From: Flavobacterium ustbae
Lineage (GTDB): Bacteria; Bacteroidota; Bacteroidia; Flavobacteriales; Flavobacteriaceae
Direction: 5' to 3'
NCBI RefSeq assembly: GCF_003946915.1
Contig: NZ_RPOC01000001.1
Span: 496,001 to 560,000, forward strand
Length of the DNA stretch: 64,000 bases
In this document: positions 6,001 to 29,412 of the stretch, piece after piece
How positions within the stretch are numbered: the stretch's first letter is position 1
Layout: every line of letters starts with the position of its first letter
Program-made: the position numbers and the translations under genes
The notes under the pieces: generated by a model
Seen by the model: the letters and a program-made list of their open reading frames with translations, nothing else
What the model was told of the DNA's origin: nothing
Database searches by the model: none

Positions 6001-9000
6001 AGTTACTGGCTCTAATTGTTTAATTTCTCTTTCTTCAACTGCAGTACATCCGTTTGCATCTGTTATAGTGAAAACATAAGTTGCAGGTGTTCCCGTATAT
6101 GTAAAAGTTGGACCCGGAATGTTTCCACTTGTAAATACCGTTGCATTTGTAGCTTTATTTCTAACTACATATCGATATGGAGCAGTTCCTCCTTCAATTC
6201 TAACTGTAATAGTAGCATTTCCAGAAATACAAGTTAATGCACCAGTAATAGATGAGGAAGCAGAGATTTTTTCATCAATTTTTTGGCTTACCGCTAAAGC
6301 ATCACAACTATTAGCGTCTGTAATTAAGAAACTATATGTACCAGGAGCGGTTGCTTTATAATCGAATGAAGTTGTATTAAATGTAGCACTTGGAGATCCA
6401 TAAGCTCCTCCGTTTGTACTTACTCTATAAGTATACGGACCAACTCCACCAATAATATTAACTGTAATTGTAGCAGCATTATTATCAAAACATAATCCTG
6501 TGTTTTGAACAACTTCTGCTCTTGGTAAAGATGCTGGACTAATTACCAGTTCTGTATCCATAGCATCTGTACAAGACTTAGAGTCTACTCCAGAAATAAT
6601 ATAAGTACCCGCAGGAACTTCAGTTAAAATTCCGTTAGCTGGGAAAGTTCTTGTGTATGAAGAATTTTTGTCTTTTAATGTTATCGTATATGCTGGTGTA
6701 CCACCTACAGCTGTAGCCGTAACTGTTGCACCTTTACAAGTAGCTGCCGATGCCGTCGCATTTACAACAAATGGATCTTTAGACGGAACTACTGTTGGAA
6801 TTGTAACGCTACATGTTGATGCATTATTAGCATAACGAACACGAACATCATAATTACCAGCAGCACGCCCTGAAATTACAACAGGAGAAACTTTAGAATT
6901 TACCCAAGTTGGCGATGATGCTCCTCCATTTAAAGTATAATAGAATCCGTCTGTTGTATTAAAGTTTTCTGCATAAATGCTAAAACTACCGTCATTACCA
7001 CCATTACATGAAACCCCAGTAACTTCTCTAACTACAGATGTAAATCCTTTATTATCTTCAACTTTTAAGTCTAAAACTTTAGCTTGTAAACAAGATTTTG
7101 GTAATTGACGTACCCAGATATCATCGATAACTAAATCGTTACCATTATATTCCTGACTACCTGAACGAATAACAAAATCTAAATTTGTATATGGCCCTGG
7201 GTTTAATGATAATGAAATTTTTACCCATTTATTTCTGTTTGGATCATTTTCTCCTTCGGCAATCTTTCCTGTGTTTTGTGTTGCCACTACCTGACCAGCT
7301 CCATTTACTAATTCAAATCTCAATTCAGGAGCATAACCAGTTTTTCCAGCAGTCAATAAGTTACCAATATAAAGGTCTACAATTACTGGTTGGTTTGGAA
7401 TTACGTCAACGATAGGCTTCATATAAAGTCTACCGTAAGGGCCGGCCTCTTTTCCAATATTTACTAATAAATATCTTCCATCTGCTCTACCTGTATTTGG
7501 TAGATTATTTGGATTTGTAGTGTGATCTTTAAAAGGGAACCATGATGAATATCCATCACTTCTCCAAAAGAAACTAGTCACAGAATATTGGTTATCCTCT
7601 ACAGATCGTGTTCCACATGGGAAAGGGCTATTTGTTCTTTGATCGTTAAAGCAATATCCTAAATAAGGTGGATTTGTAGTTGCATTTGCAATACCAGTAG
7701 TTGTTGTAGGTGGACCATTTCCGAAATCCTCGATTAATAAATTACTGTATGTTTCGGCATCTACTAAATTGTATTCTACTTTAAGTTTATAATCTCCAGC
7801 TGGAAGATCTTTAAAGACATTTGCAGGAGTATTTGTATTTAATGTATAGATATAACTTCCCGGATTCGCAGGATCTGGCTTACCTATATAGTATGAATAG
7901 GTATAATTTACACTTGTAGAAGTATGTGCTGTTACGGTTACCGTACCTTTTCCATCACAACTATAAACCGCAACTGGAGGATCAAATGTTGGATCTGCAG
8001 GTTTCTCATTTAAAATAATCCCTGGTATTTCGAAAACACAATCTGCAGCATCTTTTACTAATAAAGTATAAGCTGTTGTACTTGGAGCAACATAAGCATA
8101 GTTCTGTAAAATCCATGTGTTTCCTCCATCAAAACTATATCTATATGGGTTTGGAGCAGGAAATTGCACACCACCTTGAACGTTTGTAACTCTCACCATA
8201 CCATAATTTTGATTTGGTGCTGTACCACAACCAGATAATTCGGCTACACCACCAGAAGCTGAAAGAGTAGCTGTTGGACCTGTTATAACAATATCTTTCG
8301 GTTCATCTAGACATTCTGTACCATCATAAACATATTTTACAATTACTGTATAAGTACCTGGATCTAAATTTGTCGTTGGCAAAGTCGTATATGCACCTCC
8401 GTTAACATTATACGAAACAGCATAACCAGAATTTGATGGTGTAACAGTTAAAGATATTTCTCCTTCTTTACTATTGTAACATCTTACATTTTTCTGATTA
8501 ATTGTTACTGTTGGTCTTGTCGGTACATTAAATGTTATTGTCGGAATTGTAAATCTACATCCTGCATAATCTACTACAACAATATTATATTGTCCATTAG
8601 CTGGCAAGTTAGCTCTAGTTACTACAATTTTAGGATCAGATCCTATGTTAACGCCATTAACAATATAATTATAAGATGGAGTTGGTCCAGGAAGTGGAGT
8701 TCCTCCACTTGCGCTAATTACAATTTCTCCATCACCACATGCCAATGGCTTTGTGCTAACAGATGCTTTTAATTCTGAATCTAAAATCTGAACGTTTCTA
8801 ACTTTTTCAAAACAATTATTTTTGATTCCGTAGATTTCCACATCATAAGTTCCAGGATTAACTGGAGTGAAATCAAAGTAATTAGGAAATGTCTGATTTC
8901 CTGAATCAATAATGATTGTATTAGTTCCTGCTCTTTTTAAGACAAATCTATAATCACCATTAATACCATTTGCAAAAGCACGAATAGCACCTTTACTTCC

Positions 9001-11700
9001 TGGACATAATGGATCTGTTTTCTCAATAGTTCCAGTAAACGTTTCTTTCAAAATAGTAACATCCACATAGAAAGGACAAGTAGACGTTTGTCCATTTGCA
9101 GGAGTTTGTCTAATATGTACTCTATGATTTCCTTCTGTTACATTATTGAAAACATTTGAAGGCTGGTAAACTCCACTATTATCTAGACTATATGTATAGC
9201 CCGTATTAATTGGTGGGTTTGTAACAGTAATACTACCAACAGTATTACAAGTAATATCTGTATGATCGGCCTTAGGATCTAGTGGATTTTGGAAAACACT
9301 AAAATAGAATGTGTTCACACAATTGTTTCCATACGTCACTAATATTCTAAAAGCTCCTGGTCTATTAGCTGTAAATGTAGCTCCTGTTCCAATATTGGTC
9401 CAGTTAGGTGCCTCATCATACGGACAGCTAGATGGGAATCCTGTTGGAGGAACATCTGTGGTCTCCTGCCAGACAATACTTGTAGCACCAGTTATATTAG
9501 TGTTGATTAATCGCGTATCATTTAAACCACATAAAAAGATTTTAGGAAACTCAATATTATCTCGAGTACATGTTTCTGGTCTACCTGTACTTGCTACAAT
9601 ATTATTTGCATAACTGCTAACAGGATTAACATTTGCTCCTGCTAAATGATCTTTTACATTAAAAGTTTGTAAGATACCTTTACAATCTGGAGTCCCTCCT
9701 GTTTGTACTGTATACTTATCTGCTTTTATTACTGTAATAGATTGCGTTGTTCCAACAGTTACTCCTTTAGAATCTTTCCATAAATAAGAAGTATATCCAT
9801 TGGCTGCCGTTAAAACAGCGCTTCCACATAATGACACTTCACTTTCATATTGACAATCTTCAATACCTACTAAGAAGTTTGTAGAAGTAGGATCACCTAT
9901 TATACATCCTGTATTAAAAGAATAACTGCTGTCGCCGTATGGCTGACCATTATTTGTTGGATTTTCATCTCCAAAATATCTTGATAATGCTGTATTTCTA
10001 ATAATATTAGAACATGCATCCATCAATTCATGGCAATCATTAACAACTCTTACTCTAAATTTGAAAGAATACGTTCCTCCAGATTTTACAACCAAAGCAT
10101 TGTCTACTCTAAAAACTAGTGTCCGAGTAGCAGGATCATAAGATTGGAAATGAATACCATTTGGTAATGTAAAAATATCTGTGGTCGGATTGAAAATTAC
10201 ATTATTAGGAAGAATATCGGTAATAGTAAAATCTTTAGCATTATCATTTCCTTGATTTTTAAATCCGATCTCATAACGCATTTCCTGACCCAGCCTAACA
10301 GGCTGACCTGCTAAATCATATTCGACATCTGCATTTCCTTGTCTACGGACTCCTTTTACAACTTTTGTTAATACAATTTTTGGTTCAATAATATCTACAG
10401 CAAATGTTGATAAAAAGGCAGCATATCCATCACCTCCTGCGGTAGTAGTTAATAGTCTAAAAGTTCCCTCAGTTTGATCATTACTAATTACTGCGTTCCC
10501 ATCATTTGGAATATCCAAGTAATCAATATCAAAACCTAAGTTATTTCTACTGCTCGGATTTCTAGTGGTGACATTTGCATTGTTTTCTGTAATAGAAGCA
10601 TTGAAGAAGTTATCCTGCGGATTTGAAGTATTCCAAATAGTGGTATAATTTGTTGCTGTTGCAGAATAAGGGCCTTGTCTAAAAGCAAGAGCATCTCCTT
10701 TTCTACTTAAATCCCCATCTAAAGCAGCTACACCAATTTTTGCATAAACATTAAATGGCGCTGGTAATGTTTTAAATCCTTTTATAGGAATATCTACTTG
10801 TAATAATCTGTCTGGTCCCGCATCAACGTTTGTCATTCTTGCACCATCAAAAACAGAGATAAACTTACTTGGTTTATCTGGTGCCTCATAAATAACAACT
10901 AATGTCCATCCACCAGCTGATCCTCCTTGTCTGATTCCAGTTGTGGCTCTTACGTTACCAACGGTATATGTACCATTTACAGCATTTTTTAAAGGCTTTA
11001 TTAAATCTGTTACATCTTTAAAACAAACATAAACACTATTATTAAAGTTGTTGCTATTATTCCCTTTAAAGATAACTTCACGTGGATTGCTTTTATCCGC
11101 TGTAATTGTCTCATAAGTAGTTCTTCCAGGTATTTTCAATCTAACCTCATTCCAATCGTTTCTTGCAGTCGGACCACAATTAAAACAATTAGAATTTGTA
11201 CTCGATGCCGTAGGGTACATCGCAGACCAATATAAACCTGCAAATACAACTTCCTTACAATTGCTGTCAATATTTAAATCGGCACTACTTGAACTTGTAT
11301 TTCTCCCAGAATCTGGATCTACATTTAAGTAGTCGGCATTCAAACCGTTATTATCTGCAGTTCCATTATAAGGCAATCTTTCACCTCTTGGAGTTAAGAT
11401 AGTATTACCTATTAACTTAATATCACCTTTAACTCTAACGTATGTATTACCCTTACCATCATTTAACCTTGGCGAAAAATCTGTACCAACCTGAGCATAT
11501 CCAGTAGTAAATAATGTAAAAAATAAAAACGCAAAAATAGATTTTCGGTTTTCTTTCATTTTCACAAATAGTGGCTGTACCATCTGCTTCCTGTCAAATG
11601 ATTCCACCAATTTTTCAAACTGTTTTTGTGTGTCAGAAACAATGTTTTTGATCAAACTAAAAACAGTCTTAACTGATTTAAAAATAGTAGGTTTTTCCAT
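1..11700 (-). CDS. sprB: SprB-like giant gliding-motility adhesin, 3' end outside window
   Basis: The frame is open without a stop from the ATG at 11700 to the left edge, giving the first 3900 residues of a giant secreted protein. The start has a long basic lead, and a signal-peptide-like hydrophobic stretch follows the internal Met48 (MKENRKSIFAFLFF...YAQ). Residues about 70-440 form a non-repeat head. A DUF11-like segment follows at about 440-520. From about residue 790 there are tandem Ig-like/SprB-type repeats of roughly 80-90 residues, each ending near a D-A-N-G-C or similar motif and rich in Thr, Gly and aromatic residues. A distinct module with a jelly-roll look interrupts them at about 1310-1530. 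SprB is the mobile cell-surface adhesin that the gliding motor moves and T9SS exports. Upstream sprC/sprD-like genes in the same order as F. johnsoniae support the name. The C-terminal sorting domain and sprF are not visible. The alternative is a paralogous repeat adhesin. Confidence 0.85.
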   Translation of the reverse strand, partial: MEKPTIFKSVKTVFSLIKNIVSDTQKQFEKLVESFDRKQMVQPLFVKMKENRKSIFAFLFFTLFTTGYAQVGTDFSPRLNDGKGNTYVRVKGDIKLIGNTILTPRGERLPYNGTADNNGLNADYLNVDPDSGRNTSSSSADLNIDSNCKEVVFAGLYWSAMYPTASSTNSNCFNCGPTARNDWNEVRLKIPGRTTYETITADKSNPREVIFKGNNSNNFNNSVYVCFKDVTDLIKPLKNAVNGTYTVGNVRATTGIRQGGSAGGWTLVVIYEAPDKPSKFISVFDGARMTNVDAGPDRLLQVDIPIKGFKTLPAPFNVYAKIGVAALDGDLSRKGDALAFRQGPYSATATNYTTIWNTSNPQDNFFNASITENNANVTTRNPSSRNNLGFDIDYLDIPNDGNAVISNDQTEGTFRLLTTTAGGDGYAAFLSTFAVDIIEPKIVLTKVVKGVRRQGNADVEYDLAGQPVRLGQEMRYEIGFKNQGNDNAKDFTITDILPNNVIFNPTTDIFTLPNGIHFQSYDPATRTLVFRVDNALVVKSGGTYSFKFRVRVVNDCHELMDACSNIIRNTALSRYFGDENPTNNGQPYGDSSYSFNTGCIIGDPTSTNFLVGIEDCQYESEVSLCGSAVLTAANGYTSYLWKDSKGVTVGTTQSITVIKADKYTVQTGGTPDCKGILQTFNVKDHLAGANVNPVSSYANNIVASTGRPETCTRDNIEFPKIFLCGLNDTRLINTNITGATSIVWQETTDVPPTGFPSSCPYDEAPNWTNIGTGATFTANRPGAFRILVTYGNNCVNTFYFSVFQNPLDPKADHTDITCNTVGSITVTNPPINTGYTYSLDNSGVYQPSNVFNNVTEGNHRVHIRQTPANGQTSTCPFYVDVTILKETFTGTIEKTDPLCPGSKGAIRAFANGINGDYRFVLKRAGTNTIIIDSGNQTFPNYFDFTPVNPGTYDVEIYGIKNNCFEKVRNVQILDSELKASVSTKPLACGDGEIVISASGGTPLPGPTPSYNYIVNGVNIGSDPKIVVTRANLPANGQYNIVVVDYAGCRFTIPTITFNVPTRPTVTINQKNVRCYNSKEGEISLTVTPSNSGYAVSYNVNGGAYTTLPTTNLDPGTYTVIVKYVYDGTECLDEPKDIVITGPTATLSASGGVAELSGCGTAPNQNYGMVRVTNVQGGVQFPAPNPYRYSFDGGNTWILQNYAYVAPSTTAYTLLVKDAADCVFEIPGIILNEKPADPTFDPPVAVYSCDGKGTVTVTAHTSTSVNYTYSYYIGKPDPANPGSYIYTLNTNTPANVFKDLPAGDYKLKVEYNLVDAETYSNLLIEDFGNGPPTTTTGIANATTNPPYLGYCFNDQRTNSPFPCGTRSVEDNQYSVTSFFWRSDGYSSWFPFKDHTTNPNNLPNTGRADGRYLLVNIGKEAGPYGRLYMKPIVDVIPNQPVIVDLYIGNLLTAGKTGYAPELRFELVNGAGQVVATQNTGKIAEGENDPNRNKWVKISLSLNPGPYTNLDFVIRSGSQEYNGNDLVIDDIWVRQLPKSCLQAKVLDLKVEDNKGFTSVVREVTGVSCNGGNDGSFSIYAENFNTTDGFYYTLNGGASSPTWVNSKVSPVVISGRAAGNYDVRVRYANNASTCSVTIPTVVPSKDPFVVNATASAATCKGATVTATAVGGTPAYTITLKDKNSSYTRTFPANGILTEVPAGTYIISGVDSKSCTDAMDTELVISPASLPRAEVVQNTGLCFDNNAATITVNIIGGVGPYTYRVSTNGGAYGSPSATFNTTSFDYKATAPGTYSFLITDANSCDALAVSQKIDEKISASSSITGALTCISGNATITVRIEGGTAPYRYVVRNKATNATVFTSGNIPGPTFTYTGTPATYVFTITDANGCTAVEEREIKQLEPVTASHKVEPVTCFNAANGYIDITPLTGVAPFKYLFNGSTTETTATHYGNLAGTATGRDYSYIIIDALGCKETYTFKVFQPEDIVLSASITTPYNCDTNAATITASATRGNGGFTYVLRNTTTNTTVGTNTTGIFQNLTTPGSYSVTATDSKSCTKTVAVVGQIVALNPPKGMTINNSAVTCPSNRANVTITNVVNAAGTGVPTAGLEYRIKAPTASATAFQSSNTFTGLAAGLTYTFEVRDANKCLYEKIHEIKALPTITVTVKSQNDISCAGATNGSAIFTVSGLGNNVPFSYVVDTRAAVTGSSPGTGTSFDITVTGLSAGNHDFTITNTTTSCPASETVTINGPTATLALNAPTLTHVTCDVKGTATINAVGGWGNFTYVVTPPTGSPISQTTNLFTNLNNGNYTYTVTDRNGCSVNGSFTINDKVAPTASIATNTDLCAGGSGATIRVTPNTAPNYMYSINGGAQQNNGTFSGLIPDSYVVTVTDTSTGCSIDLPAQVVASPVEASIGLDKDLDCDPTNPNAIIRVTVRNGYPDYRYRVSTNGSGFAGAYIPVGAGQTVFTHTTTTGAAAATYEFEILDNNDCRTTVTQNIAAKVLPDFNYEVEDVKCFGGSNGTITVTGIPANGTYEYSIDGGTSYQPSNVFTGLSQGTYQITIIDDKKCTRTKPVTVNQPAIALTASAVATDLKCGTNNTPQTSTITVTAVNGTPFAGANKYKYYYNGSTTFVYSNTYTTSTSGVVNIIVEDANGCTVSTSATVNTLNPPSALAFSAPAITCNPANLNTDLLVTVTNGVPPFRYEITYTNAATAPTTPVITGVNSNTHTFTDLYPGTYNIKVTDANNCTITQTHVINDVVKITASNTVIKPVSCNNGNDGEIRYTVAGNRTGGYTYTLTGSVTGAITGGNQVGDVITYTGLTPQTYTFVVTNTATRCEATQVVTLANPTPVTILTAAGTKVYCDKPNTTITVTASGGTGTLYYAVVRAGATAPTFPTDYNTTGIFTRSTTSPTAGTSFVVYVQDKNGCPVQRNISVTRDAAPTIDPAPVTCFTGSTTVTITGTVYNGNANALYGLNGVYNNNPVKTIPGSGSYVLSIKDDNGCEAKTTLIVNDQLRLTVRADKDATCLAVPPFTTADAQVTLTGAGGDGTYSYGYSTISTGPFTTLPGNVFNTSTPGTYYFNVTSGGCSTIASTSFEVTTPQIPVVSAIATGTKCTSSEEGTIRISVTSGGVPPFTYTIDDWATSNDTGYFTDLPGATGAGLGYTYKVRDSKGCEGTGTAQVFVVSPDPITFGTHVDPIECDPSAVPPGSTLGAITVQNATGGTGQYVYYISNNFGFKNSYTTTAREDHKFDIIDFGIYTIEVKDENDCSVSSQEVMASPPNDLVIDITTTPSTCTSGGTAIVTAVATVGSGNYEFGILEFNTAPYTNNYVGPDTAGGNVKTFNPLTPGVTYTFVVHDLTTNCYFLKSASGPIAPASTLVGTPVAQNVTCLNAADGRVTFNVTGINATTTSVEYQIFRDQSNQVVSPVLTEPVSGTSFTKTYPDVGPGTLAPGRYYIVFTERGGTIDGCKSASTMFEIKESATQLFVDATLVKNANCNPNSGIVKAQGRGGTGPYLYQIVVDNGPIGFDASDVQPASSSFVSPTHSASSFNVNSGSYLVWVKDANGCITSDNIAVPLDPSPLITLDVVNYCAAEGAFEVRVNEDTAGIAPYYISVNNGNFKLITTPMPYTITGLNSGPVNVVVRDANGCETPVTSTTINATPTANAEVTTVLACSVSGGTVENAAITVKVKNGTTPYTYEVRKGTDPYNSITPATTVVGGETTFVYTVASGDADIYQFRITDANTCPIETNVVRVDAIVPISPSSNPIQPLCNGDNGTVELSATGGKAPYTFEFNNSGTFSEETVYSVVAGPYTYVVRDALGCEVSGNGTLNQPTPLADNGPSVSGFTCTTGNAPQSATVTLAATPGSGTGPNYLYSFNGSDFTSTTTYTVDYNGQDQTIPYIIQD

Positions 11701-11833: not shown

Positions 11834-14800
11834 TTAATTCTCAACTTTTACTACAGCCATTCTACCGTTGTATGGCTTGCTACCCTTTGCCTCCATTGCT
11901 TTTGTAGCTTCTTGTAAACCATCAAACTTCTCGTAGTAGATGTAATACTTACTTGTTGTTACGTTGTAAAAGAAATTGATATCTGAACGTCCCGCAGCAA
12001 CTGCTTTTGTTAAGAAATCATCGCGTTTCTCTACACTGTTATGAACTGCAACAATCAAATAATAGCCACTATCAGAGTTTTTAATATTCTTAATAATCTG
12101 CATATTCGACTGCTCTTCACCAAAATCAAAATCGCTAGCTGTTAATGGCGTACTGCTCAATTTAGTTGTCTCTTTTATTCGTTTCAGAGCGGCAACGTCC
12201 TGCGCATATCTTCCTTCATCATTTTCATAAGCGGCACGTTTAATTCTACGTTTGCGCTCAATTTCTGTTTCTGTTTTAATACGCTCTAAATCGGCAATTA
12301 AAGCAGCACCTTCTGCTTGCATTTTTAACTGAGCCGCTTTCAATTCGTTGATCTTTTCAAGATAAGCTTTATTCAAAGGATCATCTTTAGGGAACTTTTT
12401 ACTTCTTTCGTTATAAAGATTCGTCAACTTCGCAATCTCATTCTTCATGCTGTTATTGGCATCCGCAATCTGAACTTTTAATGATTCAATCAGACTGTTT
12501 TCTGCCGCTACACTCTTAAATGGTTTTGGCTCTTTATAAATACCTTTTTCACTTAAATCATTCTCCTCTTTTAAATCGTTCAAGTCTTTTTGCTTGTTGG
12601 CAACAGTTGCTTTAAACTGATCTAATAAATCATTCTGCAGCTTACGTGTGCTTTCAACAGACTGGGTCAAGTTTTCAATTGCTTTTCCAGTATCATCTTG
12701 CGCTTTTGCCGCTAAAGCTGCTGCTTCAGCATCTGCCTTAGCTTTTTCAGCTGCAAGTCTCGCTTGACGCTCTTCCTCTTCTCTCAATCGTCTAGTCTCT
12801 TCTTCTGCTTTCAATTTTTCAGTAGCTTCTGCATCCGCTTTCGCTTTAGCGTCTGCTAAAAGTTTAGCTTGTAGCGCTTCCATATCTGCCTTTGCTTTCG
12901 CATCTGCAGCAAGTTTCGCTTGTAGCGCTTCTGCATCTGCTTTTGCTTTGGCATCTGCGGCTAATTTTGCCTGAAGTGCTTCTGCATCTAATCTCGCTTT
13001 TTCTTCACTAGCTTGTTTTGCTTTTAATGCTTCTGCGTCGGCTTTTGCTTTAGCATCGGCTGCCAACTTAGCTTGGCGAGCATCTTCTTCTTCTTGCAAT
13101 TTTTTAGCTTCTGCATCTGCTTTTGCTTTAGCAGTAGCTTCTGCATCGGCTTTTACTTTAGCATCTGCTAATAATTTTGCCTGTAAGGCTTCCATATCTG
13201 CTTTCGCTTTTGCATCAGCTGCTAGTTTAACTTGTAAAGCTTCAGCATCCGCTTTGGCTTTAGCATCGGCTGCCAATTTCGCTTGACGAGCTTCTTCTTC
13301 AACTCTAGCTTTTTCTTCAGCAGCTTGTTTCGCCTGTAAAGCTTCTGCATCTGCTTTAGCTTTAGCATCTGCGGCTAATTTAGCTTGGCGAGCTTCTTCT
13401 TCAACTCTAGCTTTTTCTTCCGCCGCTTGTTTCGCTTGTAAAGCTTCCGCATCAGCTTTCGCTTTTGCTTCAGCAGCTAATCTTGCTGTTTCTGCTTCTG
13501 CAGCTTGTTTTGCTTTCAATGCCTCTGCATCCGCTTTTGCTTTTGCATCAGCTGCTAATTTTGCCTGACGTGCTTCTTCCTCTTCTTGTAATTTTTTAGC
13601 TTCTGCTTCTGCTTTCGCTTTTGCCGTAGCTTCAGCATCTGCTTTTACTCTTGCGTCAGCAATTAATTTAGCTTGTAATGCTTCCATATCTGCTTTCGCT
13701 TTCGCTTCAGCAGCTAATCTTGCTGTTTCTGCTTCTGCATCGGCTTTTGCTTTTGCTTCAGCAGCTAATCTTACTTTTTCTGCTTCTGCATCAGCTTTTG
13801 CTTTCGCATCAGCTTCTAATTTTACTTTTGCTGCAGCCTCTGCATCGGCTTTAGCTTTTGCATCTGCTACCAATTTGGCTTGAAGCGCTTCTGCATCCGC
13901 TTTAGCTTTAGCCTCTGCTGCCAATTGTGCTTGACGCGCTTCTTCAGCTTGTCTTATTTTCAGTGCTTCTGCATCTGCTTTTGCTTTTGCTTCTGCAGCA
14001 ATAAGTGCTTGTCTTGCTTCTTCATCTGCTTTCGCTTTTGCTTCTGCTGCTGCTTTTTCTTTAAGCGCCGCTTCTTCAGCAGCTTTTGCTTTTAAGTCTG
14101 CAGCCGCTTTAGCTTTATTTGCCGCATCAATAGAAGCTTTAGTTTTTGCTTCTGCTGCAGTTTTGGCTTTAGCTTCTGCTGCTAATCTTGCTTGTAATGC
14201 ATCCGAATCAGCTTTAGCTTTTGCATCTGCTGCTAATATTGATTGCATGTCTGCAGCTTCTGCTTTTGCTTTTGCATCTGCTTTACGTTTTGCTTCTGCT
14301 GCATCGGCTTTGGCTTTATTATCTGCAATTAATTTTAATCGTGCGGCTTCTGCATCGGCTTTTGCTTTTTCTGCAGCTGCCAATCTTGCTTGTCTTGCAG
14401 CTTCTGCATCTGCTTTTACTTTTGCTGCAGCGGCTAATCTTGCTTTTGTTGCAGCTTCAGCGTCTGCTTTAGCTTTATCAGCGGCTAATTGTGCTGCTGT
14501 TTTCTGTGGAGCCGGAGCTGGAGCAGCTGGTTTATTTACCGCTTCTGCTTTGGCTTTAGCCGCTGCTTCTGCATCTGCTTTCGCTTTTGCATCTGCAGCC
14601 AATTTTAACTTCATTGCTTCTGCATCGGCTTTTGCTTTATCAGCAGCCAGTTGCGCTTGTGTTTTTTGCGGAGCTGGAGCCGCTGCTGTCTTGTTTGCGG
14701 CTGCTTGCGCTCTCGCTGCTGCTGCGGCATCTACTCTAGCTTTGTTGTCGGCAGCTAATTCTATTCTGCGTTGTTCCGCATCTGCTCTAGCTTTATCCGC

Positions 14801-16105
14801 AGCTAGTTGTGCCTGTGTTTTTTGTGTTGCTGCTACAGCTCTGTTTGCTGTTGCTGTTTGTGCTCTCGCTGCTGCTGCGGCATCTGCTTTTGCTTTTGCC
14901 TCGGCAGCCAATCTTATCTTAACAGCTTCAGCATCTGCTTTAGCTTTATTATCTGCTTCTAATTTTGCTTTGGCTGCAGCCTCTGCATCTGCTCTAACTT
15001 TTTCTGCTGCCGCCAGTCTTGCTTGTTTTGCTTCAGCATCAGCTTTGGCTTTTGCTTCTGCGGCTAACCTATTCTTTTCAGCAATTTCAGCTCTGTTAAC
15101 TTGAGTTGCTTGCGATTTTGGTTTAGCTGGAACTGGTTTTGGTTTTGCAGGATCAATAATAGATCCTTCCTCATCATCTCCGTAATAGTAATTTCTATTT
15201 TTGAATTTGTAGGCAATGGCAAATTCGTGTGAACCGCCTAAGTTTGAGAAATTGCCCATTCCTCTTTCGTAATTATATTCAATTGCAATGCTTGGAGAAA
15301 TATTGATCCCAAGTCCTGCAGATACTCCATATAATGTGTTATAACCGGCTTGTGCCCAAACTCCTTGCTGAAGTGCAAGCATTCCAAGACCCGAAATAAC
15401 TGTTTTATCTTTTTTAATTTCTGTTCTAACAATTCCAGAAAATTTACTTCTATCAAAAAAACCATAACTGTCAATGTAACCTGTGTACATCGCATGCAGT
15501 TGAATTGCTCTTTCTGGATCATCTTTTACCATTCCTGATCCTAGATTATAAAGCACTAAATTATTAATAGACAATCCAAAATCTAAAAAAGCTGTTCCAT
15601 AATTAATACCTGGATTAATCGTAAGTAGCGTACTTTTTGGAAAATCTCCGTTTAAAATAGTGGTATCATCTGATATGATTTTTCCACTATTTATACCACT
15701 TTGATAAAACCCTGCATTTAAACCAAAAGTCAAATTACTATCCTCTTCAAGAACAATATTATGTGCGAAATTGGCAACTCCGCCAAATACTGTCATCAAA
15801 CCATAATTCTGCTGAAACAAACTAACTGCAAATGCTTCATTCTCTCTAAAACGTCCAGAATAACCAAATACGTAGGTATTAGGAGCATTTTCAAATTGTG
15901 TCCATTGTCTTTTGTTGTAAAAGCTGATATACGGATTTGATTCTCGAACAAAACTAAATGTCGGGTTAATTAAATATCTATTAAACTTTAAAGAATTTCT
16001 AATGGGTAATGAAAACGAAACAACTCCATCCTCAGAAGCTTCTTGAGAATAGAGTGCATTTGATAAACCATAAAATAAAGTGATGAATAGTAAAAGTTTC
16101 TTCAT
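11834..16105 (-). CDS. sprD: SprD-like protein: PorP/SprF barrel plus coiled coil plus SPOR-like end
   Basis: This 1423-residue protein starts with a signal peptide (MKKLLLFITLFYGLSNALYSQ). Residues about 25-315 resemble the PorP/SprF family of T9SS outer-membrane proteins: aromatic-rich alternating strands, with a SPSIAIEYNYERG-type late strand. Residues about 345-1140 are a low-complexity TolA-like stretch of AKADAEA-type heptads that should form a very long helix. The last ~80 residues (YYLIVAVHN...MAVVKVEN) look like a SPOR fold, which binds peptidoglycan. The start is one base after the sprC-like stop, so the two are cotranscribed and probably coupled. SprD is needed for normal spreading in F. 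johnsoniae. I infer that it spans from outer membrane to cell wall and may serve the type B substrate encoded just before it. Confidence 0.85.
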   Translation of the reverse strand: MKKLLLFITLFYGLSNALYSQEASEDGVVSFSLPIRNSLKFNRYLINPTFSFVRESNPYISFYNKRQWTQFENAPNTYVFGYSGRFRENEAFAVSLFQQNYGLMTVFGGVANFAHNIVLEEDSNLTFGLNAGFYQSGINSGKIISDDTTILNGDFPKSTLLTINPGINYGTAFLDFGLSINNLVLYNLGSGMVKDDPERAIQLHAMYTGYIDSYGFFDRSKFSGIVRTEIKKDKTVISGLGMLALQQGVWAQAGYNTLYGVSAGLGINISPSIAIEYNYERGMGNFSNLGGSHEFAIAYKFKNRNYYYGDDEEGSIIDPAKPKPVPAKPKSQATQVNRAEIAEKNRLAAEAKAKADAEAKQARLAAAEKVRADAEAAAKAKLEADNKAKADAEAVKIRLAAEAKAKADAAAAARAQTATANRAVAATQKTQAQLAADKARADAEQRRIELAADNKARVDAAAAARAQAAANKTAAAPAPQKTQAQLAADKAKADAEAMKLKLAADAKAKADAEAAAKAKAEAVNKPAAPAPAPQKTAAQLAADKAKADAEAATKARLAAAAKVKADAEAARQARLAAAEKAKADAEAARLKLIADNKAKADAAEAKRKADAKAKAEAADMQSILAADAKAKADSDALQARLAAEAKAKTAAEAKTKASIDAANKAKAAADLKAKAAEEAALKEKAAAEAKAKADEEARQALIAAEAKAKADAEALKIRQAEEARQAQLAAEAKAKADAEALQAKLVADAKAKADAEAAAKVKLEADAKAKADAEAEKVRLAAEAKAKADAEAETARLAAEAKAKADMEALQAKLIADARVKADAEATAKAKAEAEAKKLQEEEEARQAKLAADAKAKADAEALKAKQAAEAETARLAAEAKAKADAEALQAKQAAEEKARVEEEARQAKLAADAKAKADAEALQAKQAAEEKARVEEEARQAKLAADAKAKADAEALQVKLAADAKAKADMEALQAKLLADAKVKADAEATAKAKADAEAKKLQEEEDARQAKLAADAKAKADAEALKAKQASEEKARLDAEALQAKLAADAKAKADAEALQAKLAADAKAKADMEALQAKLLADAKAKADAEATEKLKAEEETRRLREEEERQARLAAEKAKADAEAAALAAKAQDDTGKAIENLTQSVESTRKLQNDLLDQFKATVANKQKDLNDLKEENDLSEKGIYKEPKPFKSVAAENSLIESLKVQIADANNSMKNEIAKLTNLYNERSKKFPKDDPLNKAYLEKINELKAAQLKMQAEGAALIADLERIKTETEIERKRRIKRAAYENDEGRYAQDVAALKRIKETTKLSSTPLTASDFDFGEEQSNMQIIKNIKNSDSGYYLIVAVHNSVEKRDDFLTKAVAAGRSDINFFYNVTTSKYYIYYEKFDGLQEATKAMEAKGSKPYNGRMAVVKVEN
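12690..15070 (-). repeat. Coding repeat array of Ala/Lys/Asp/Glu heptads in sprD-like gene
   Basis: About 2.4 kb of near-repeated codons for AKADAEA, LAADAKAKADAEA and similar units. Some longer units are almost identical, for example the EEEARQAKLAADAKAKADAEA type, so the array is prone to length change by slippage or recombination. It also creates long open frames on the opposite strand that are not genes. Confidence 0.85.
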
Positions 16106-16106
16106 A

Positions 16107-17576
16107 TTATTTTATAACAGTTATTGATCCTTTTTTTTCACCTGCATCGCCTTGAATAACATAGTAATAAACTGGATTTACATTTTTTAAATCTATATTG
16201 TTTTGAGGCCAATCGCCTTGGTAATTCACAACGTCCAAAACCATATCTCCGTTTGAACTAATGATCATTACTTTTGTATTTGCATTTTTATATTCATCTG
16301 GAATATCCCAATAAGGAATCAATCCTCCCAATTTTATAATATTCGGAATAACAGTTGCATTTCCTGGTTCTCCATTTATTCTAAATGAAAATTCTCGTGT
16401 AGAAATACAGCCTGAAGCTTGAGATACTTTTACCGTATAATTACCTTTTACAGCTACAACATAAGATCTTGATGTTTCATTAGGAATTAGATTTCCATTT
16501 AAATACCATTCATAAGTAACGGCATCTGCATCTGTAGTAACACTAACTGTGATCGTTTCTCCTTCAGCTAATTGGTAACCGTCTTCGGCATCAATGCTAG
16601 CTTCAAAACTATTATTACTTTGAAGATTAATACTGCCTGAAGCCTTACAACCTCCAAAATCTACATCTACAGTATAAACTCCTGATTCGTTTGTAGAATA
16701 TGTACGATTTGTAGCGCCTGTAATCACAGCGCCATCTTTTTTCCACACATAACTATTACCAGAAGTTGCAGTTAAAACAGTTCCTGTTCCACTTGAGCAA
16801 AAAGGATTTCCTAAACTTGAGCTAATAGTTACGCTCGATCCTGAAGTTGAAGAAATAACATCTACACGATTTGAATATGATAATGAAGTACAGGTTCCAT
16901 AATTCGTTTCTACATAATATGTCCCAGGCGTAGTAACTGTATAAGTTGGTCCTCCATTGCCTTGAACAAGAGTTGGCAACGTCGTTTCGCCATTAAATCT
17001 ATACCAATTGTATGATAAAGATGGGTATTTTGTAGGTGAATCATTTACTGGATTTGTAGAATCTGGATCAATTGATAATACGTAACTACCACCAGAACAA
17101 ATAGCAGCACTACCATTAAAATTGTTAATGGTGTACTGCTGATCATGTATTTTGTAATAAATTGGGAAAAGCTTTTTTGTTGTCGAAGACGAAAATGTTC
17201 CGCTGGCTGGCTGGCCTCCCGAACTCTTTATCCTCAAGGCATAAGTATCTGATCCAACTATATCAGAAGGAATACTAAATACTATTGTTTTCTTATTAGC
17301 TGCATCATCGATTACGTTTACAGTTGTTGTTGAAGTCGGAGTAGTAAAGCTACCTGCTTTATCCGATAATTCAACTTCAAATGTAGTACCTGTTTGATAG
17401 CCTGTGTAAGTAAATGATGCCCTATAAGTTGGATTAGCAGCACCACCAGCGCAAATTCTATCAAAAGTTAAAATGTCAGGCACTATGCTTTGGGCATAGG
17501 TATTCGATTCAGTAAAAAGAATTATACCAAATAATAAAAAGACTTTAAAAAAAGATAAAGTAATTTTTTGAATCAT
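16107..17576 (-). CDS. sprC: SprC-like secreted protein with type B T9SS sorting domain
   Basis: The protein has 489 residues. A signal peptide (hydrophobic residues about 8-28, ending ...NTYAQ) is followed by several Ig/PKD-like segments with paired Cys and Y-x-W strands, such as YNWYRF, YVWKKDGAVITGA and YEWYLNGNLI. Residues about 403-489 match the pattern of the CHU_C, or gliding-motility-associated, C-terminal domain: an early VIPNII strand, the W-D-I-P motif, YYYVIQGD and a GSITVIK end. In F. johnsoniae type B domains direct export through T9SS with a PorP/SprF-like partner encoded next door, here the SprD-like protein. The start overlaps the preceding stop by 4 bp (ATGA). Identity as sprC rests on domain content plus gene order. 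Confidence 0.8.
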   Translation of the reverse strand: MIQKITLSFFKVFLLFGIILFTESNTYAQSIVPDILTFDRICAGGAANPTYRASFTYTGYQTGTTFEVELSDKAGSFTTPTSTTTVNVIDDAANKKTIVFSIPSDIVGSDTYALRIKSSGGQPASGTFSSSTTKKLFPIYYKIHDQQYTINNFNGSAAICSGGSYVLSIDPDSTNPVNDSPTKYPSLSYNWYRFNGETTLPTLVQGNGGPTYTVTTPGTYYVETNYGTCTSLSYSNRVDVISSTSGSSVTISSSLGNPFCSSGTGTVLTATSGNSYVWKKDGAVITGATNRTYSTNESGVYTVDVDFGGCKASGSINLQSNNSFEASIDAEDGYQLAEGETITVSVTTDADAVTYEWYLNGNLIPNETSRSYVVAVKGNYTVKVSQASGCISTREFSFRINGEPGNATVIPNIIKLGGLIPYWDIPDEYKNANTKVMIISSNGDMVLDVVNYQGDWPQNNIDLKNVNPVYYYVIQGDAGEKKGSITVIK

Positions 17577-17980
17577 ATAGTGCGTGTTCTTGCTAGATCT
17601 ATACGCTCAAAAAACAGAATATCTATAAATGTTTCTGAGAAGTCGTACTTATAGTTTTCAATTACTTCTTTTGCAATAATTGAAGTTGCAGCAAATGACG
17701 AATTCTCTTCGCAATCATTAGATACGGTATTTGGCTCAGCCGCTATAGTAAGGCTATCCTTGGGGGCGGACATCCCTACTATAGACTGATTTAAATTACC
17801 TTTTGTGCCGTTTTCAATAACAGCAATATTGTTGTTTTGGTTATTACAAGCCAAAGTTAAACCACACTCAGAAACTGCAGCCTTAGTAGGATTTTCTGCT
17901 GTATTCTGTGCATATAGAGTTAACGAAATAGGCGAAACCAAAAATATTATATATAAAAAATATTTTTTCGTAGATACCAT
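17573..17980 (-). CDS. Small secreted protein at head of spr operon (Fjoh_0982-like position)
   Basis: The ATG at 17980 gives 135 residues and begins with a clear signal peptide (MVSTKKYFLYIIFLVSP...YAQ). An upstream in-frame ATG at 18019 would add 13 residues that are unhelpful for export. The mature part is short, has several Cys (CGLTLAC, NDCEEN) and shows no domain I recognise. Its end overlaps the sprC-like start by 4 bp, which points to translational coupling. In F. johnsoniae the sprCDBF operon starts with an uncharacterised gene, fjoh_0982, in this position, so a role in gliding or adhesin assembly is plausible but inferred. Confidence 0.65.
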   Translation of the reverse strand: MVSTKKYFLYIIFLVSPISLTLYAQNTAENPTKAAVSECGLTLACNNQNNNIAVIENGTKGNLNQSIVGMSAPKDSLTIAAEPNTVSNDCEENSSFAATSIIAKEVIENYKYDFSETFIDILFFERIDLARTRTI

Positions 17981-18080
17981 TATGTCTTGATCTTTATTTG
18001 GGCCCGTAAGACGATACATAAATTGTGTCTGGGGACTTAATTAATAAAATTTACGCGAGGGAAATAAAAATCGAAACTAT

Positions 18081-19373
18081 TTATCTATTACCGCTTGAAG
18101 CTGTGATTTTTCCTAATTGTAATCTAAAATCTGGTTTTTTAGGATTGAAGATATCAATGAATGTTTCTTTGTTATCACTTTGAGAGTAAACATTAAAGAA
18201 AACACTGTTTCCATACCAGCTTTCTAAATCTTCATTATTAGAATTGTACTCTGTAAAGATGTTTCCATTACATAGGTTAAAGTACATTTCTTCAAATTTG
18301 ATTTTCTTAAGGTTGGCATCATTGATCTCTGTTTTGCTGTCTAATAATACTGCCGGATTAAATCCAGAGATTACACTTCTTTTCATTTCAAGAGAAGCAT
18401 TTTCTGCAACATAAACAGCCTCTTTTACTAAACCTGCTTGAATATCAGCTTTAATATTTTCACTGTCGTTAACCATCGTAATATTACTAGCAACAACTAA
18501 AGTTTGTTTTTTAGTAAAGTCTGTTTCACTTTTCTTTTCAAAAGATCTTACTTCCATACAACGAGATCCGTCTTTTGTACTTGAGAAGTAAGAAGATCTA
18601 ACTGCTAGAGAGTTGAAGAAACGACATTGAACTCCTTGAGAAAATTTAAAGTCGTCGTTTACCGATTTATATGAAACGAATTTTGTAGCATTTAAGTCAC
18701 CACCTAAGATTCCGAAAGAATCTCCACCAGCGTAACTAACCATGATGTTTTCAAGAATTGTTTTGTTTCCAACTGCTGCAAGAGTCAAAGCGTTGAAAGT
18801 ATCTAACCCTTTTACTTTTTTTCCAGCAAACTCGATTCTTACGAATCTCAAAATTCCAGAGTTAGAAGCTACATTGTCTCCACCATAAGTAGTCATAGAT
18901 GGATCAAGGTCTAAGTTATAAGAACCTACATTTCCGAATTTATTAATAGGTGCATCTCCAAGAATTACAATTCCACCCCAATCTCCCGCTTTTTTCATGC
19001 TACGGTTTGAAGTAAATACAATTGGATCTGTTTCTAAACCATCAGCCACTAATTGTGCTCCTTTTGTAATTACCAATGTTCCTTTAGTTTCGAAATCACC
19101 AATAATTACAGTTCCTGGTTCAATAGTTAAAACAGCATTGTTTGTAACATAAACGTTTCCTTGCAAAACGTAGATATTTCTTTTCAGCAATTTAGTATTA
19201 ACAGAAATATTTCCTGCCAAAATTTGGTTTGCTTCTCCATAGTCAACTTTATTAGGCTTAAACTCGGTCCAGTTGTTTAACCAATTGGTGTAGCCCATAA
19301 TTCCTTTCTCTTGTTGAGCATTCATACTCGCCACCGTAAAAAGAACGCAGATTAATTGAGTAATTTTTTTCAT
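18081..19373 (-). CDS. Secreted protein with predicted beta-helix fold
   Basis: The protein has 430 residues with an N-terminal signal peptide (MKKITQLICVLFTVASMNAQ). Repeated short strands such as VYVTNNAVLTIEPGTVIIGD and ADGLETDPIVFTS, then WGGIVILGDAPIN, are characteristic of right-handed beta-helix surface proteins of Bacteroidota. No catalytic motif is evident and the C-terminus does not show an obvious T9SS sorting domain. It lies 100 bp upstream of the small secreted gene of the spr operon on the same strand and may be its first cistron or a separate unit. The precise function is unknown. Confidence 0.7.
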   Translation of the reverse strand: MKKITQLICVLFTVASMNAQQEKGIMGYTNWLNNWTEFKPNKVDYGEANQILAGNISVNTKLLKRNIYVLQGNVYVTNNAVLTIEPGTVIIGDFETKGTLVITKGAQLVADGLETDPIVFTSNRSMKKAGDWGGIVILGDAPINKFGNVGSYNLDLDPSMTTYGGDNVASNSGILRFVRIEFAGKKVKGLDTFNALTLAAVGNKTILENIMVSYAGGDSFGILGGDLNATKFVSYKSVNDDFKFSQGVQCRFFNSLAVRSSYFSSTKDGSRCMEVRSFEKKSETDFTKKQTLVVASNITMVNDSENIKADIQAGLVKEAVYVAENASLEMKRSVISGFNPAVLLDSKTEINDANLKKIKFEEMYFNLCNGNIFTEYNSNNEDLESWYGNSVFFNVYSQSDNKETFIDIFNPKKPDFRLQLGKITASSGNR

Positions 19374-19562: not shown

Positions 19563-20015
19563 TTACATTTCGTTCAAGTCGTTGAACTCGTGTAATGATT
19601 TCAATGTACTTTCGTAGAACAAAATTGCAGCAACTAGATTTCCTTTATCAGAGTAAGGCATCATTTTTCTTTGGAATTCTACCGTAGTATCCAAAAATGT
19701 TGACGTACCTACTGCCTGAGCATCTAATATTTTTTTGTGATCACTGTCGTCTGGAATACCAAGGTCGGCCATAGTAACACCTGGTTTTGTAACCAAAGCA
19801 ATGTAAGGGAGAGTTTTAACTAATACTTTAATTCGCTCGATGTATAATTCCAAAAGTTCTCCCTTTTGCATACCACTCAATTCTTTTTGATCATGGTATT
19901 TACGGATAAGAGCAGTTGTACTGATAATACTTCTCGGTGCGTTTTTAGCTTGTGCTGATACAGCCGCAGTAGTTAAGATAAAAAAAGCACTAAATAGAAT
20001 AATTTTCCCTTTCAT
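19563..20015 (-). CDS. Small secreted protein of unknown function
   Basis: The protein has 150 residues with a signal peptide (MKGKIILFSAFFILTTAAVSAQA) and a mainly helical mature part. Two charged stretches (KYHDQKELSGMQKGELLELY and FQRKMMPYSDKGNLVAAILFY) flank a segment that may sit in the periplasm. I do not recognise the family. It has its own promoter-like elements upstream (20050-20079) and a terminator-like repeat downstream, so it is probably monocistronic and not part of the spr operon. Confidence 0.65.
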   Translation of the reverse strand: MKGKIILFSAFFILTTAAVSAQAKNAPRSIISTTALIRKYHDQKELSGMQKGELLELYIERIKVLVKTLPYIALVTKPGVTMADLGIPDDSDHKKILDAQAVGTSTFLDTTVEFQRKMMPYSDKGNLVAAILFYESTLKSLHEFNDLNEM

Positions 20016-28406: not shown

Positions 28407-28435
28407 TTGATAACTATACGCGTTGCATAACTTTG
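28407..28435 (+). promoter_or_regulatory. Promoter of the HU/SPOR gene
   Basis: TTG at 28407-28409, an 18-bp spacer and TAACTTTG at 28428-28435. The ATG at 28441 follows 5 nt later, so translation would start at or near the first base of the message. An upstream TTG codon in frame at 28423 lies inside the promoter and cannot be the start. Confidence 0.7.
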
Positions 28436-28440
28436 TTGAT

Positions 28441-29412
28441 ATGAAAATCGAAGTATATATCTCGCAGTTATTGTATCGTTATCAATGTGTAACGGTTCCA
28501 GGATTTGGTGCATTTTTAACAGAAACTCATTCGGCGCAGTTGAATGAAAGCACTAATTCGTTTTTTCCTCCAAAAAAGACTATTTCTTTCAACAGCCGTA
28601 TCAAAAATAATGACGGATTGTTGGCAAATCATATCGCACAAGCTGAAAAAACATCTTACGGTTTTGCTGTAAGTGCCATTGCTTTTGAGGTTTTAAATTG
28701 GAAAAAAGCCTTAGAAGAAGACGGCGTAATTCTTTTAAAGAATATTGGTGAACTACGTTTAAACTCTGAAAGCAATATTGTTTTTAAACCAAACGATCAG
28801 ACCAATTATTTGGCAACTTCTTTCGGATTAAGCCCTTTTGTTTCTCCTATGGTGAAAAAAGAGACTTTTGAGAAAAAAATCGAAAAAATCGCTGCAAAAG
28901 AAAAAGATGTTGTTTTAATATATGAAAATGAAGAAGAGACCAAATCTTCAAACCCATTTTTACGATATGCTGCAATTCTTGTTTTAGGACTTGGAATTAC
29001 GGGAAGCATTGGTTATCCTTTATACCAAAATCAAATTGACAATCAAACACTTGTTGTAGAACAAGCTGTTCAGAAAAAAGTTCAGAATAAAATTCAGGAA
29101 GCAACTTTCATGATCAAAAATCCGCTTCCTGCTGTAACACTTTCTGTAGATTCTGCAGCTGTTGAAACTGCAGAGCCAACTATGCCTTACCACATTATGG
29201 CTGGTGCTTTTAGAAGTGAACAAAATGCAAGAAAAGCTTATAACCAACTAATAAAAGATGGTTTCAAAGCTAGAATGCTAAAAGAAAACAAACACGGATT
29301 ATATCCTGTTTTGTACGGAAGTTATGCTACAATGAAAGAAGCTGAACAAGCCCAAAAAGAAATACAAAAAGGCGAAAATCCGCAAGCCTGGATTCTGGTC
29401 GAAAATCTATAA
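28441..29412 (+). CDS. HU-domain plus SPOR-domain membrane protein
   Basis: The ATG at 28441 (MKIEVYISQLLYRYQCVTVPGFGAF) gives 323 residues. Residues about 1-130 resemble the HU-like domain (HU-CCDC81) found in Bacteroidota, including the early VPGFGAFL strand. A membrane helix follows at about 175-195 (RYAAILVLGLGITGSIGYPLY). The last ~75 residues (MPYHIMAGAFRSEQNARKAYN...PQAWILVENL) are a SPOR domain that binds denuded peptidoglycan. It probably links the inner membrane to the cell wall at division sites; the cytoplasmic part may bind DNA or protein. The start was chosen from the promoter position. Confidence 0.88.
   Translation: MKIEVYISQLLYRYQCVTVPGFGAFLTETHSAQLNESTNSFFPPKKTISFNSRIKNNDGLLANHIAQAEKTSYGFAVSAIAFEVLNWKKALEEDGVILLKNIGELRLNSESNIVFKPNDQTNYLATSFGLSPFVSPMVKKETFEKKIEKIAAKEKDVVLIYENEEETKSSNPFLRYAAILVLGLGITGSIGYPLYQNQIDNQTLVVEQAVQKKVQNKIQEATFMIKNPLPAVTLSVDSAAVETAEPTMPYHIMAGAFRSEQNARKAYNQLIKDGFKARMLKENKHGLYPVLYGSYATMKEAEQAQKEIQKGENPQAWILVENL

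Follow-up and report, generated by a model that had tools for sequence, protein, structure and literature searches.

The outer-membrane barrels of the PorP/SprF family act as carriers of type-B surface proteins secreted by the T9SS. Static type-B carriers are tied to the cell wall via PorE (PMC12618676), and in an excerpt of PMC9143113 wall anchoring through PorP-PorE-like complexes is postulated for the non-mobile type-B proteins. Carriers that follow the gliding track are of the SprF type, which is linked to GldK by a disulfide according to an excerpt of PMC12635249; in the same excerpt the proteins disulfide-bonded to GldK are SprF and PorG, and SprD is not mentioned. SprC and SprD are said to 'support SprB function' in PMC5879114, which adds nothing beyond this, and a text search of PMC12618676 found neither SprC nor SprD.

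The sprD gene and its barrel

The window analysed here is a stretch of 64,000 nucleotides of Flavobacterium ustbae (GCF_003946915.1, contig NZ_RPOC01000001.1, positions 496,001 to 560,000). It contains the SprD gene of a standard, complete sprC-sprD-sprB-sprF gliding operon (Table 1). sprD is flanked by sprC and sprB, and sprF follows sprB, as in PMC9723704 and PMC5879114, and 1 nt separates the stop codon of sprC from the start of sprD. Operon position, barrel profile matches and orthologs confirmed the SprD identity proposed in the initial annotation, whose coordinates for the frame proved exact. SprD frames of the genus that were not visibly broken had lengths of 903-1792 aa, and where the tail was at least 85% identical the genus members had intact frames of 1475-1792 aa; the SprDs of other genera had 719-989 aa. 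A length of 1423 aa is therefore ordinary for SprD in this genus, and an abnormally long helix as a special feature was ruled out. A chance low-complexity reading frame was also ruled out, given the conservation of barrel and tail and the 14 more full-length orthologs. The antisense frame at 14163-15104 (+), 313 aa, mirrors the repeat and was on account of its composition not accepted as a gene.

Table 1. Coordinates of sprD, its parts and the neighbouring genes in the window.
Feature	Position	Strand	Basis and remarks
sprB ortholog (giant adhesin), N-terminal 3900 aa	1..11700	-	frame runs past the window to G000:C11:489434
sprD ortholog, 1423 aa	11834..16105	-	profile and ortholog comparison
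C-terminal domain, predicted SPOR fold, aa 1334-1423	11837..12106	-	model; core beta-alpha-beta-beta-alpha-beta
Conserved helical region, aa 1144-1333	12107..12676	-	alignment; model helices aa 1145-1186, 1200-1237, 1243-1313
Ala/Lys/Glu/Asp-rich linker, predicted helical, aa 302-1143 (842 aa)	12677..15202	-	composition, repeats, charge pairs
PorP/SprF outer-membrane barrel, aa 37-299	15209..15997	-	Pfam PF11751, E 1.6e-44
Signal peptide, aa 1-21, without Cys	16043..16105	-	read by eye
sprC ortholog, 489 aa, C-terminal type-B T9SS signal (CHU_C below Pfam cut-off)	16107..17576	-	
430-aa gene, remG position	18081..19373	-	named by position only, operon order PMC9723704
150-aa gene, remF position	19563..20015	-	named by position only

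The proposed T9SS barrel was borne out by full-length agreement with PF11751 (152.9 bits, cut-off 22.3; profile positions 10-273 of 273) and by NCBIfam TIGR03519 (E 1.2e-54). The nine other barrels of the genome are encoded by frames of 303-358 aa, and the length of SprD is unusual within the genome. Seven of the ten barrels end in PRFF and have a PorE-like gene downstream, with PD40 in 7/7, and two carry a CxC tail, among them the genome's own SprF (L038, 358-aa frame); the long arm is present in SprD only. No cysteine was found in the mature part of the 15 full-length SprDs, and thus no CxC tail of the SprF type. Because PorP is a 14-stranded barrel (excerpt of PMC9143113) and the C-terminal tail of SprF is periplasmic (excerpt of PMC12635249), the arm of SprD is by analogy expected in the periplasm.

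The arm and the end domain

The DNA of the linker contains tandem repeats with periods of 51, 102, 156 and 312, among others. Residues at i,i+4 form 145 pairs of opposite charge and 3 of like charge, compared to means of 51 and 50 in 2000 shuffles of the linker (extremes 74 and 26, respectively). Opposite pairs exceeded like pairs in 15/15 linkers, though the linker sequence is not conserved, and the charge pattern gives strong support to a predicted helix. The longest stretch without Pro and Gly is 606 residues (aa 534-1139), which would span 90.9 nm if it formed one helix. Prolines interrupt the linker at aa 319-329, 477-479 and 526-533, and at best three helical segments (147, 46 and 606 aa) are therefore to be expected. 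The '~800-residue helix' of the initial annotation was accordingly supported as a long helix by the charge pairs, but not as an unbroken one. The charges of the linker have a period of 8.6, and among the six strongest periods listed for the large hydrophobic residues neither 3.5 nor 3.67 was seen, so that the linker resembles a single charged helix more than a coiled coil of the classic heptad kind. This was the outcome of the coiled-coil check suggested in the initial annotation. Linkers of 137-432 aa were observed in 14/14 other genera with SprDs covered in full, compared to 842 aa in the window. Arm length is free to vary, which counts against a particular significance of the ~800 residues.

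In 18 other genera, the helical region (190 aa) and the end domain of SprD were 44-56% identical to those of the window, and both were kept in 15/15 full-length orthologs. A fold search with the model of the whole 280-residue tail listed helical bundles, and the end domain (90 residues) was therefore modelled alone, with a pLDDT of 91. Among the structural matches listed, five of its six best were SPOR/CwlC entries with Z scores of 5.4-6.3 (RlpA 6.3, DamX 6.3, DedD 6.1 and CwlC 5.4), and rank 1 was 6ozd, an exported protein of Burkholderia (Z 8.0); all scores were at most 8, a range graded middling by the tool. The first clearly unrelated match had a Z of 3.6, and the SPOR domain of FtsN a Z of 3.0. 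Foldseek returned no match at E <= 0.001 for the 280-residue tail model or the domain model. According to its model the end domain is a divergent SPOR fold; at the level of the fold the SPOR-like end claimed earlier was upheld, and the structure prediction suggested as a check did not yield a fold unlike SPOR.

No match to Pfam PF05036 (SPOR) was obtained in the end domain (E up to 10) or in whole SprD, and SPOR was absent among the 25 most frequent of the 63 Pfam families matching 36 SprD-type tails. Profile searches of PDB sequences with the SprD tail gave no SPOR chain; since the control, the window's Pfam-positive SPOR protein, likewise gave none, this result is uninformative. SprD-type domains (ten rows, including one LysM and one HU-SPOR) were aligned by hhalign against tails taken from two PorE-like proteins and from further PorP barrels, with a probability of 98.6 and an E of 7.9e-16; of the 12 tails on that side, 9 match Pfam SPOR with an E of 1 or lower (best 1e-4). 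PorP_SprF and SPOR were both over their Pfam cut-offs in six of eight PorP fusions scanned whole (L054, L166, L172, L175, L176 and L181). The immediate neighbours of L054, L181 and L183 are a giant SprB-like ORF on one side and, on the other, a substrate whose ending is type-B-like as judged by eye. These profile comparisons indicate that the SprD end domain is homologous to the tails of PorP barrels that pass the Pfam SPOR cut-off. None of the papers listed by full-text searches deals with PorP-SPOR fusions, and text searches in PMC10710014 and PMC9389320 found nothing on them.

In RlpA, glycan is held by Q270, R309 and R311 (excerpt of PMC6895207). The counterparts in SprD are Ile or Val for the Gln and Tyr for the beta-3 Arg, as read by eye from an alignment in which RlpA was not a row and R302 was not placed. 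The two Pfam-positive SPOR proteins of the genome differ in this respect: the one in the window is without the contact residues, and the other (L086) retains the Gln and carries a Lys. Since a Pfam-positive SPOR protein is also without them, the lost contacts weaken binding to the wall as a reading of the tail but do not decide against it.

SprC and the contacts of the tail

SprC is encoded directly upstream of SprD in 15/15 loci (the window and 14 genera), at a spacing of 1 nt in 13 loci, 0 in one and 23 in one. SprD was found in 33 of 101 genomes of the genus, and stand-alone SprC in the same 33, that of G133 being partial at a contig end. Proximity and shared occurrence make SprD most likely the carrier of SprC. 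The SprC C-termini match CHU_C in 15/15 at E up to 0.01 (window SprC 21.7 bits, below the Pfam cut-off of 27), and profile comparison with eight other type-B signals of the window's genome gave a probability of 97.5 and an E of 5.9e-12. The NGDGxND motif is lost from the SprC signal in the clade of the window; given this loss and the CHU_C score below cut-off, its use of the carrier could differ. SprC reportedly moves on the gliding track (Fig. 1e legend and text in an excerpt of PMC12635249, citing a thesis), which argues against a fixed anchor or a strut of the track. In place of the adhesin secretion site of the initial annotation, a carrier that departs from the translocon together with its cargo is the more fitting description.

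We consider it somewhat probable that SprD represents a third type of PorP/SprF carrier tail, with a built-in arm and an end domain in reversible, non-covalent periplasmic contact. A long, charge-stabilised arm, segmented and of variable length, would leave the periplasmic face of the barrel and lead to the conserved three-helix region and then to the divergent SPOR-fold domain. Such a tail would differ both from the CxC tail, with its disulfide between SprF and GldK, and from the PRFF tail, which is short and accompanied by a separate PorE-like anchor. Candidates for what the end domain contacts are the wall's glycan strands or that side of the gliding apparatus which faces the wall, and the reversibility of the contact would keep SprC and SprD near the tracks without fixing them.

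An alternative, though a doubtful one, is that the tail binds GldJ, GldK or GldN by protein contact which replaces the disulfide of SprF, so that the SPOR fold is reused and SprC/SprD are driven like SprB/SprF. Movement of SprC on the track (excerpt of PMC12635249) and the loss of glycan-ligand residues would fit, SprD without cysteines would need another linkage, and the helical region and domain are conserved across the genera in contrast to a free-running linker. However, SprD is not named with the GldK partners in that excerpt, and the SPOR fold family is wall-linked elsewhere. A static wall anchor in the sense of the initial annotation, with denuded glycan bound by the SPOR domain and with barrel and cargo fixed to peptidoglycan as by PorP and PorE in one protein, is unlikely. 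It agrees with the predicted fold, with the anchoring postulated in the excerpt of PMC9143113, with L174, a PorE-like protein of a related genome in which SPOR, PD40 and OmpA are all over cut-off, and with a LysM protein of the same genome that shares the helical and SPOR tail. SPOR binding need not be permanent, however, and a fixed anchor is hard to combine with a moving SprC (excerpt of PMC12635249) and with the loss of the Gln and beta-3 Arg contacts known from RlpA (excerpt of PMC6895207). That the arm arose by repeat expansion and merely keeps a small accessory domain, with SprD important only as a barrel, is very improbable: the tandem repeats, the range of linker lengths (137-842 aa) and the supportive role given to SprC and SprD (PMC5879114) are opposed by the retention of helical region and SPOR domain and by the excess of opposite charge pairs in every linker in spite of unconserved sequence.

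In the LysM protein (G000:C22), the helical region and end domain shared with SprD come after four LysM domains. The SprD tail could mark a third class of T9SS carriers, non-covalent in kind, in which it docks onto a similar tail of a partner bound to the wall; in this genus that partner would be the LysM protein. We regard this as rather improbable. The chain would run from barrel through arm and tail to a second tail, LysM and peptidoglycan, and a make-and-break link would let SprC ride along the wall. The tail-bearing LysM protein was present in 29 of 33 SprD-positive genomes and in 1 of the 68 others (Fisher p 7e-20, kinship ignored); the four SprD-positive genomes without it are G062, G076, G106 and G133, two of them less than 90% complete. 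A RecA tree was built for 98 genomes, as 3 of the 101 were without a RecA match at E <= 1e-100. Only four independent pairs were available on its supported branches, with the same direction in 3.2 on average (median p 0.25) and the opposite direction in a few of 200 pairings; the kinship-aware association is suggestive, not significant. A search with the LysM tail in 59 other genera, 18 of them with SprD, found nothing that came close to the strength of its own match. SprD genes were the strongest of the foreign matches (E 2.4e-16 to 1.8e-9), followed by weaker ones from E 1e-8, partly examined, and the LysM protein is therefore not a general partner of SprD.

Relation to known systems

SprD fits neither class of carrier, as its presumed cargo moves and yet it has no cysteine and a predicted wall-type fold. 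The modelled architecture points to a third mode by which surface proteins may be held from inside, and knowledge of the tail ligand would reveal how a surface protein follows the gliding track without a disulfide. TolA domain II is a long, Ala/Lys/Glu-rich periplasmic helix like the SprD linker, a likeness of composition only. TolA is an inner-membrane protein, and its end domain is other than that of SprD. The SPOR domains of RlpA, DamX, DedD and CwlC would have the same fold as the SprD end at 10-12% identity, whereas in SprD the key ligand residues are lost and a Pfam call is absent. SprD of Flavobacterium johnsoniae (Rhodes et al. 2011, J Bacteriol 193:599) occupies the same position in the sprC-sprD-sprB-sprF operon, a likeness by position and not by sequence. 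The described SprF and PorP carriers (PMC12618676; excerpts of PMC9143113 and PMC12635249) share with SprD the Pfam barrel and a substrate gene directly upstream, but SprF has a CxC tail where SprD has no mature cysteine and a long, SPOR-ended arm. PorP-PorE of P. gingivalis (excerpt of PMC9143113) resembles SprD in that a barrel is combined with a periplasmic wall-type domain; there the domain is of the OmpA type and sits on PorE, a second polypeptide, whereas in SprD the predicted SPOR fold is part of the barrel's own chain.

Locus and architecture of SprD

SprD is an already known protein, and the sequence facts that the initial annotation gave for it were found to be right. Its locus is the flavobacterial remF-remG-sprC-sprD-sprB-sprF operon: sprC, sprD and sprB are followed by sprF outside the window, two genes that take the places of remF and remG lie upstream of sprC, and the order is that of the operon in PMC9723704. 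The start of sprC shares 4 nt with a small ORF whose N-terminus is signal-like. At its place, no ORF of at least 120 aa was found among those listed in 14 other genera.

The PorP/SprF barrel of SprD is complete (residues 37-299; Pfam E 1.6e-44, NCBIfam TIGR03519 E 1.2e-54). The linker (residues 302-1143) is composed of 39% Ala, 16% Lys, 11% Glu and 8% Asp, and its DNA contains tandem repeats with periods of 51, 102, 156 and 312 among others. An Ala/Ser-rich ORF antisense to this repeat is most probably an artefact, produced by the frames in which the repeat can be read. Opposite charges were found in 145 i,i+4 pairs of the linker and like charges in 3, compared to means of 51 and 50 in 2000 shuffles, and this excess is a helix signature. 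The long helix proposed initially is thereby supported, but not as an unbroken stretch of about 800 residues: the longest run free of Pro and Gly has 606 residues and would measure 90.9 nm if helical, and Pro clusters split the remainder. No heptad or hendecad period was among the six strongest periods for large hydrophobic residues, and the term coiled coil is therefore unsupported for the linker.

The C-terminal 280 residues of SprD were used to search for relatives in 60 genomes of the family. The tail was matched in 26 genomes, 19 of them strongly, own genome included (E below 1e-67). Four of the 18 strong foreign SprDs are located at contig ends; the 14 analysed in full length measure 719-989 aa, of which 137-432 are linker, 168-193 helical region and 89-94 domain. 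Within the genus, SprD is present in 33 of 101 genomes (counted where most of the query was matched with E no higher than 1.5e-23 and a stand-alone SprC was present). Five of these frames are cut short (346-684 aa) where a contig ends, N runs intervene or the frame breaks, and the remaining ones range from 903 to 1792 aa. Thus, the length of the arm varies freely and the end does not.

Table. Coordinates of the features discussed (bare numbers, window positions; L, further loci fetched for comparison)
Feature	Position	Strand	Description
sprB	1-11700, continuing beyond		6088 aa by coordinates
sprD	11834-16105	-	1423 residues
ORF antisense to linker repeat	14163-15104	+	313 aa
sprC	16107-17576
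SprC type-B signal	16110-16385	-
ORF at sprC start	17573-18019	-	148 aa
HU-CCDC81-like protein	28423-29412	+	Pfam-positive SPOR domain, E 3.3e-13
LysM protein	L053:7415-9331 (own genome, G000:C22)	+	638 aa; four LysM, then SprD-type helical region and domain
HU-CCDC81/SPOR protein	L055:6640-7980	-	canonical Pfam SPOR, then SprD-like copy
SprD-type domain protein	L184:1599-3647	-	683 aa
PorE-like protein	L174:1387-4173	+	N-terminal SPOR-like domain
PorE-like protein	L173:1291-3846	+	N-terminal SPOR-like domain
Distant protein	L178:931-2898	-	C-terminal SPOR-like domain
Distant protein	L179:803-2692	-	C-terminal SPOR-like domain

The C-terminal domain and its relatives

Pfam does not call SPOR in the C-terminal domain of the window's SprD. 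An AlphaFold2 model from 36 tails (pLDDT 87.6) consisted of three helices followed by beta-beta-alpha-beta-beta-alpha-beta with a short first strand, and the domain modelled alone (38 rows, relatives included) reached pLDDT 91.0 and pTM 0.83. Foldseek gave no match to this model at E <= 0.001; the peptidoglycan-binding domain of CwlC was ranked first (E 0.086), DedD fifth and DamX twelfth. In VIA-align the highest score was 8.0 for 6ozd (2.5 A, 77 residues), followed by RlpA (6.3 and 6.2), DamX (6.3), DedD (6.1) and CwlC (5.4), after which scores dropped to 3.6, with FtsN at 3.0. On the sequence level, SprD-type domains aligned with the tails of other PorP barrels and two PorE-like proteins (probability 98.6, E 7.9e-16), and a Pfam SPOR match with E no higher than 1 was obtained for 9 of these 12 tails. 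As whole proteins, six exceed both the PorP and the SPOR cut-off (21 bits for SPOR): L054 (31.0), L176 (36.3), L175 (26.0), L166 (25.5), L181 (23.4) and L172 (21.5); L182 and L165 exceed the PorP cut-off only. These model matches and the homology through intermediate tails argue that, despite the missing Pfam call, the domain is a divergent SPOR fold, and the SPOR-like end proposed at the outset is borne out.

In a set of 296 genomes from the phylum, 29 matched the domain profile at E <= 1e-5, and 25 of the 29 belong to the family itself; a PorP-SPOR fusion is also present beyond the family, in L176 of the same class. The domain of L184 was recognized by a profile built for the SprD-type domain (E 3.5e-23), with no Pfam match at E 0.01. 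PorE-like L174 exceeds the Pfam cut-offs for SPOR, PD40, CarboxypepD_reg and OmpA, and so has two wall-type domains in one protein. L178 and L179, of about 630-656 aa, adjoin a gene for a membrane-like protein, as judged by eye.

The LysM protein of the window's genome shares 24% identity with SprD in its tail. It is flanked by a guaA-like gene (by eye) and by another LysM protein, part of which is receptor/periplasmic-binding-like. Within the genus it is present in 29 of the 33 SprD genomes versus 1 of the 68 others, a co-occurrence of which kinship can explain much; in the other SprD-bearing genera no match to a protein like it was obtained.

Glycan-contact residues named for RlpA in PMC6895207 are Q270, R302, R309, R311 and F274. 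Q270, F274, R309 and R311 were placed on SprD from motifs judged by eye in an alignment without RlpA: Gln is replaced by Ile or Val, Phe by His, and both Arg by Tyr. Two proteins of the window's genome exceed the Pfam SPOR cut-off. The one in the window, HU-CCDC81-like by likeness to L055, also lacks the Gln and Arg; in the other (L086) Gln is kept and a Lys is present. Wall binding by the SprD domain is no more than a possibility.

SprC and the carrier tails

The gap between sprC and the sprD that follows it is 1 nt at 13 of 15 loci, with 0 and 23 nt at the other two. Matches to SprC as a stand-alone protein (at least as good as E 1.4e-45) were found in exactly the 33 SprD genomes, a count leaving out G083 (5.5e-46) and G092 (4.9e-44), where the matches lie inside frames of 2014 and 2258 aa. 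CHU_C is matched by the ends of all 15 SprCs with E values no higher than 0.01; that of the window (E 0.00022, 21.7 bits) is under the cut-off of 27. The NGDGxND motif is gone from the type-B signal in the window and in 16 of 20 fetched genus members (L282-L297). In 15 of these 16 the SprD frame measures 1165-1792 aa, and N interrupts that of the sixteenth; the four members keeping the motif or a near form have SprD frames of 903-1282 aa. From these sequences, the SprC signal and the SprD carrier may have changed together, counted as one event because all are in one clade.

The ten barrels of the window's genome are seven PRFF-ended, two CxC and SprD. Each PRFF barrel lacks Cys in its last 40 residues and is followed by a PorE-like gene; PD40 was found in 7 of 7 of these PorE-like proteins, which were compared in the part before their C-termini. 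The tail of SprF is NCPCTQ. The C-terminal part of SprD is without Cys in 26 of 27 genus members, the single exception being at a broken-frame edge. As a third type of carrier tail, the arm ending in a SPOR fold is, to our knowledge, new; no account of it was found in the literature searched, a search outside which the 2011 sprCD paper falls.

In the available part of PMC12618676, mobile substrates are set apart from PorE-anchored static ones, and SprC is not treated there. PMC12635249 shows SprF disulfide-bound to GldK as well as SprC trajectories, and states, citing a thesis, that SprC moves on the track. The fixed link from outer membrane to peptidoglycan proposed in the initial annotation was therefore not accepted, since the presumed cargo of SprD is reportedly mobile. 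If SprD is the carrier of SprC, it must move while having no disulfide itself, and this is the main puzzle of SprD.
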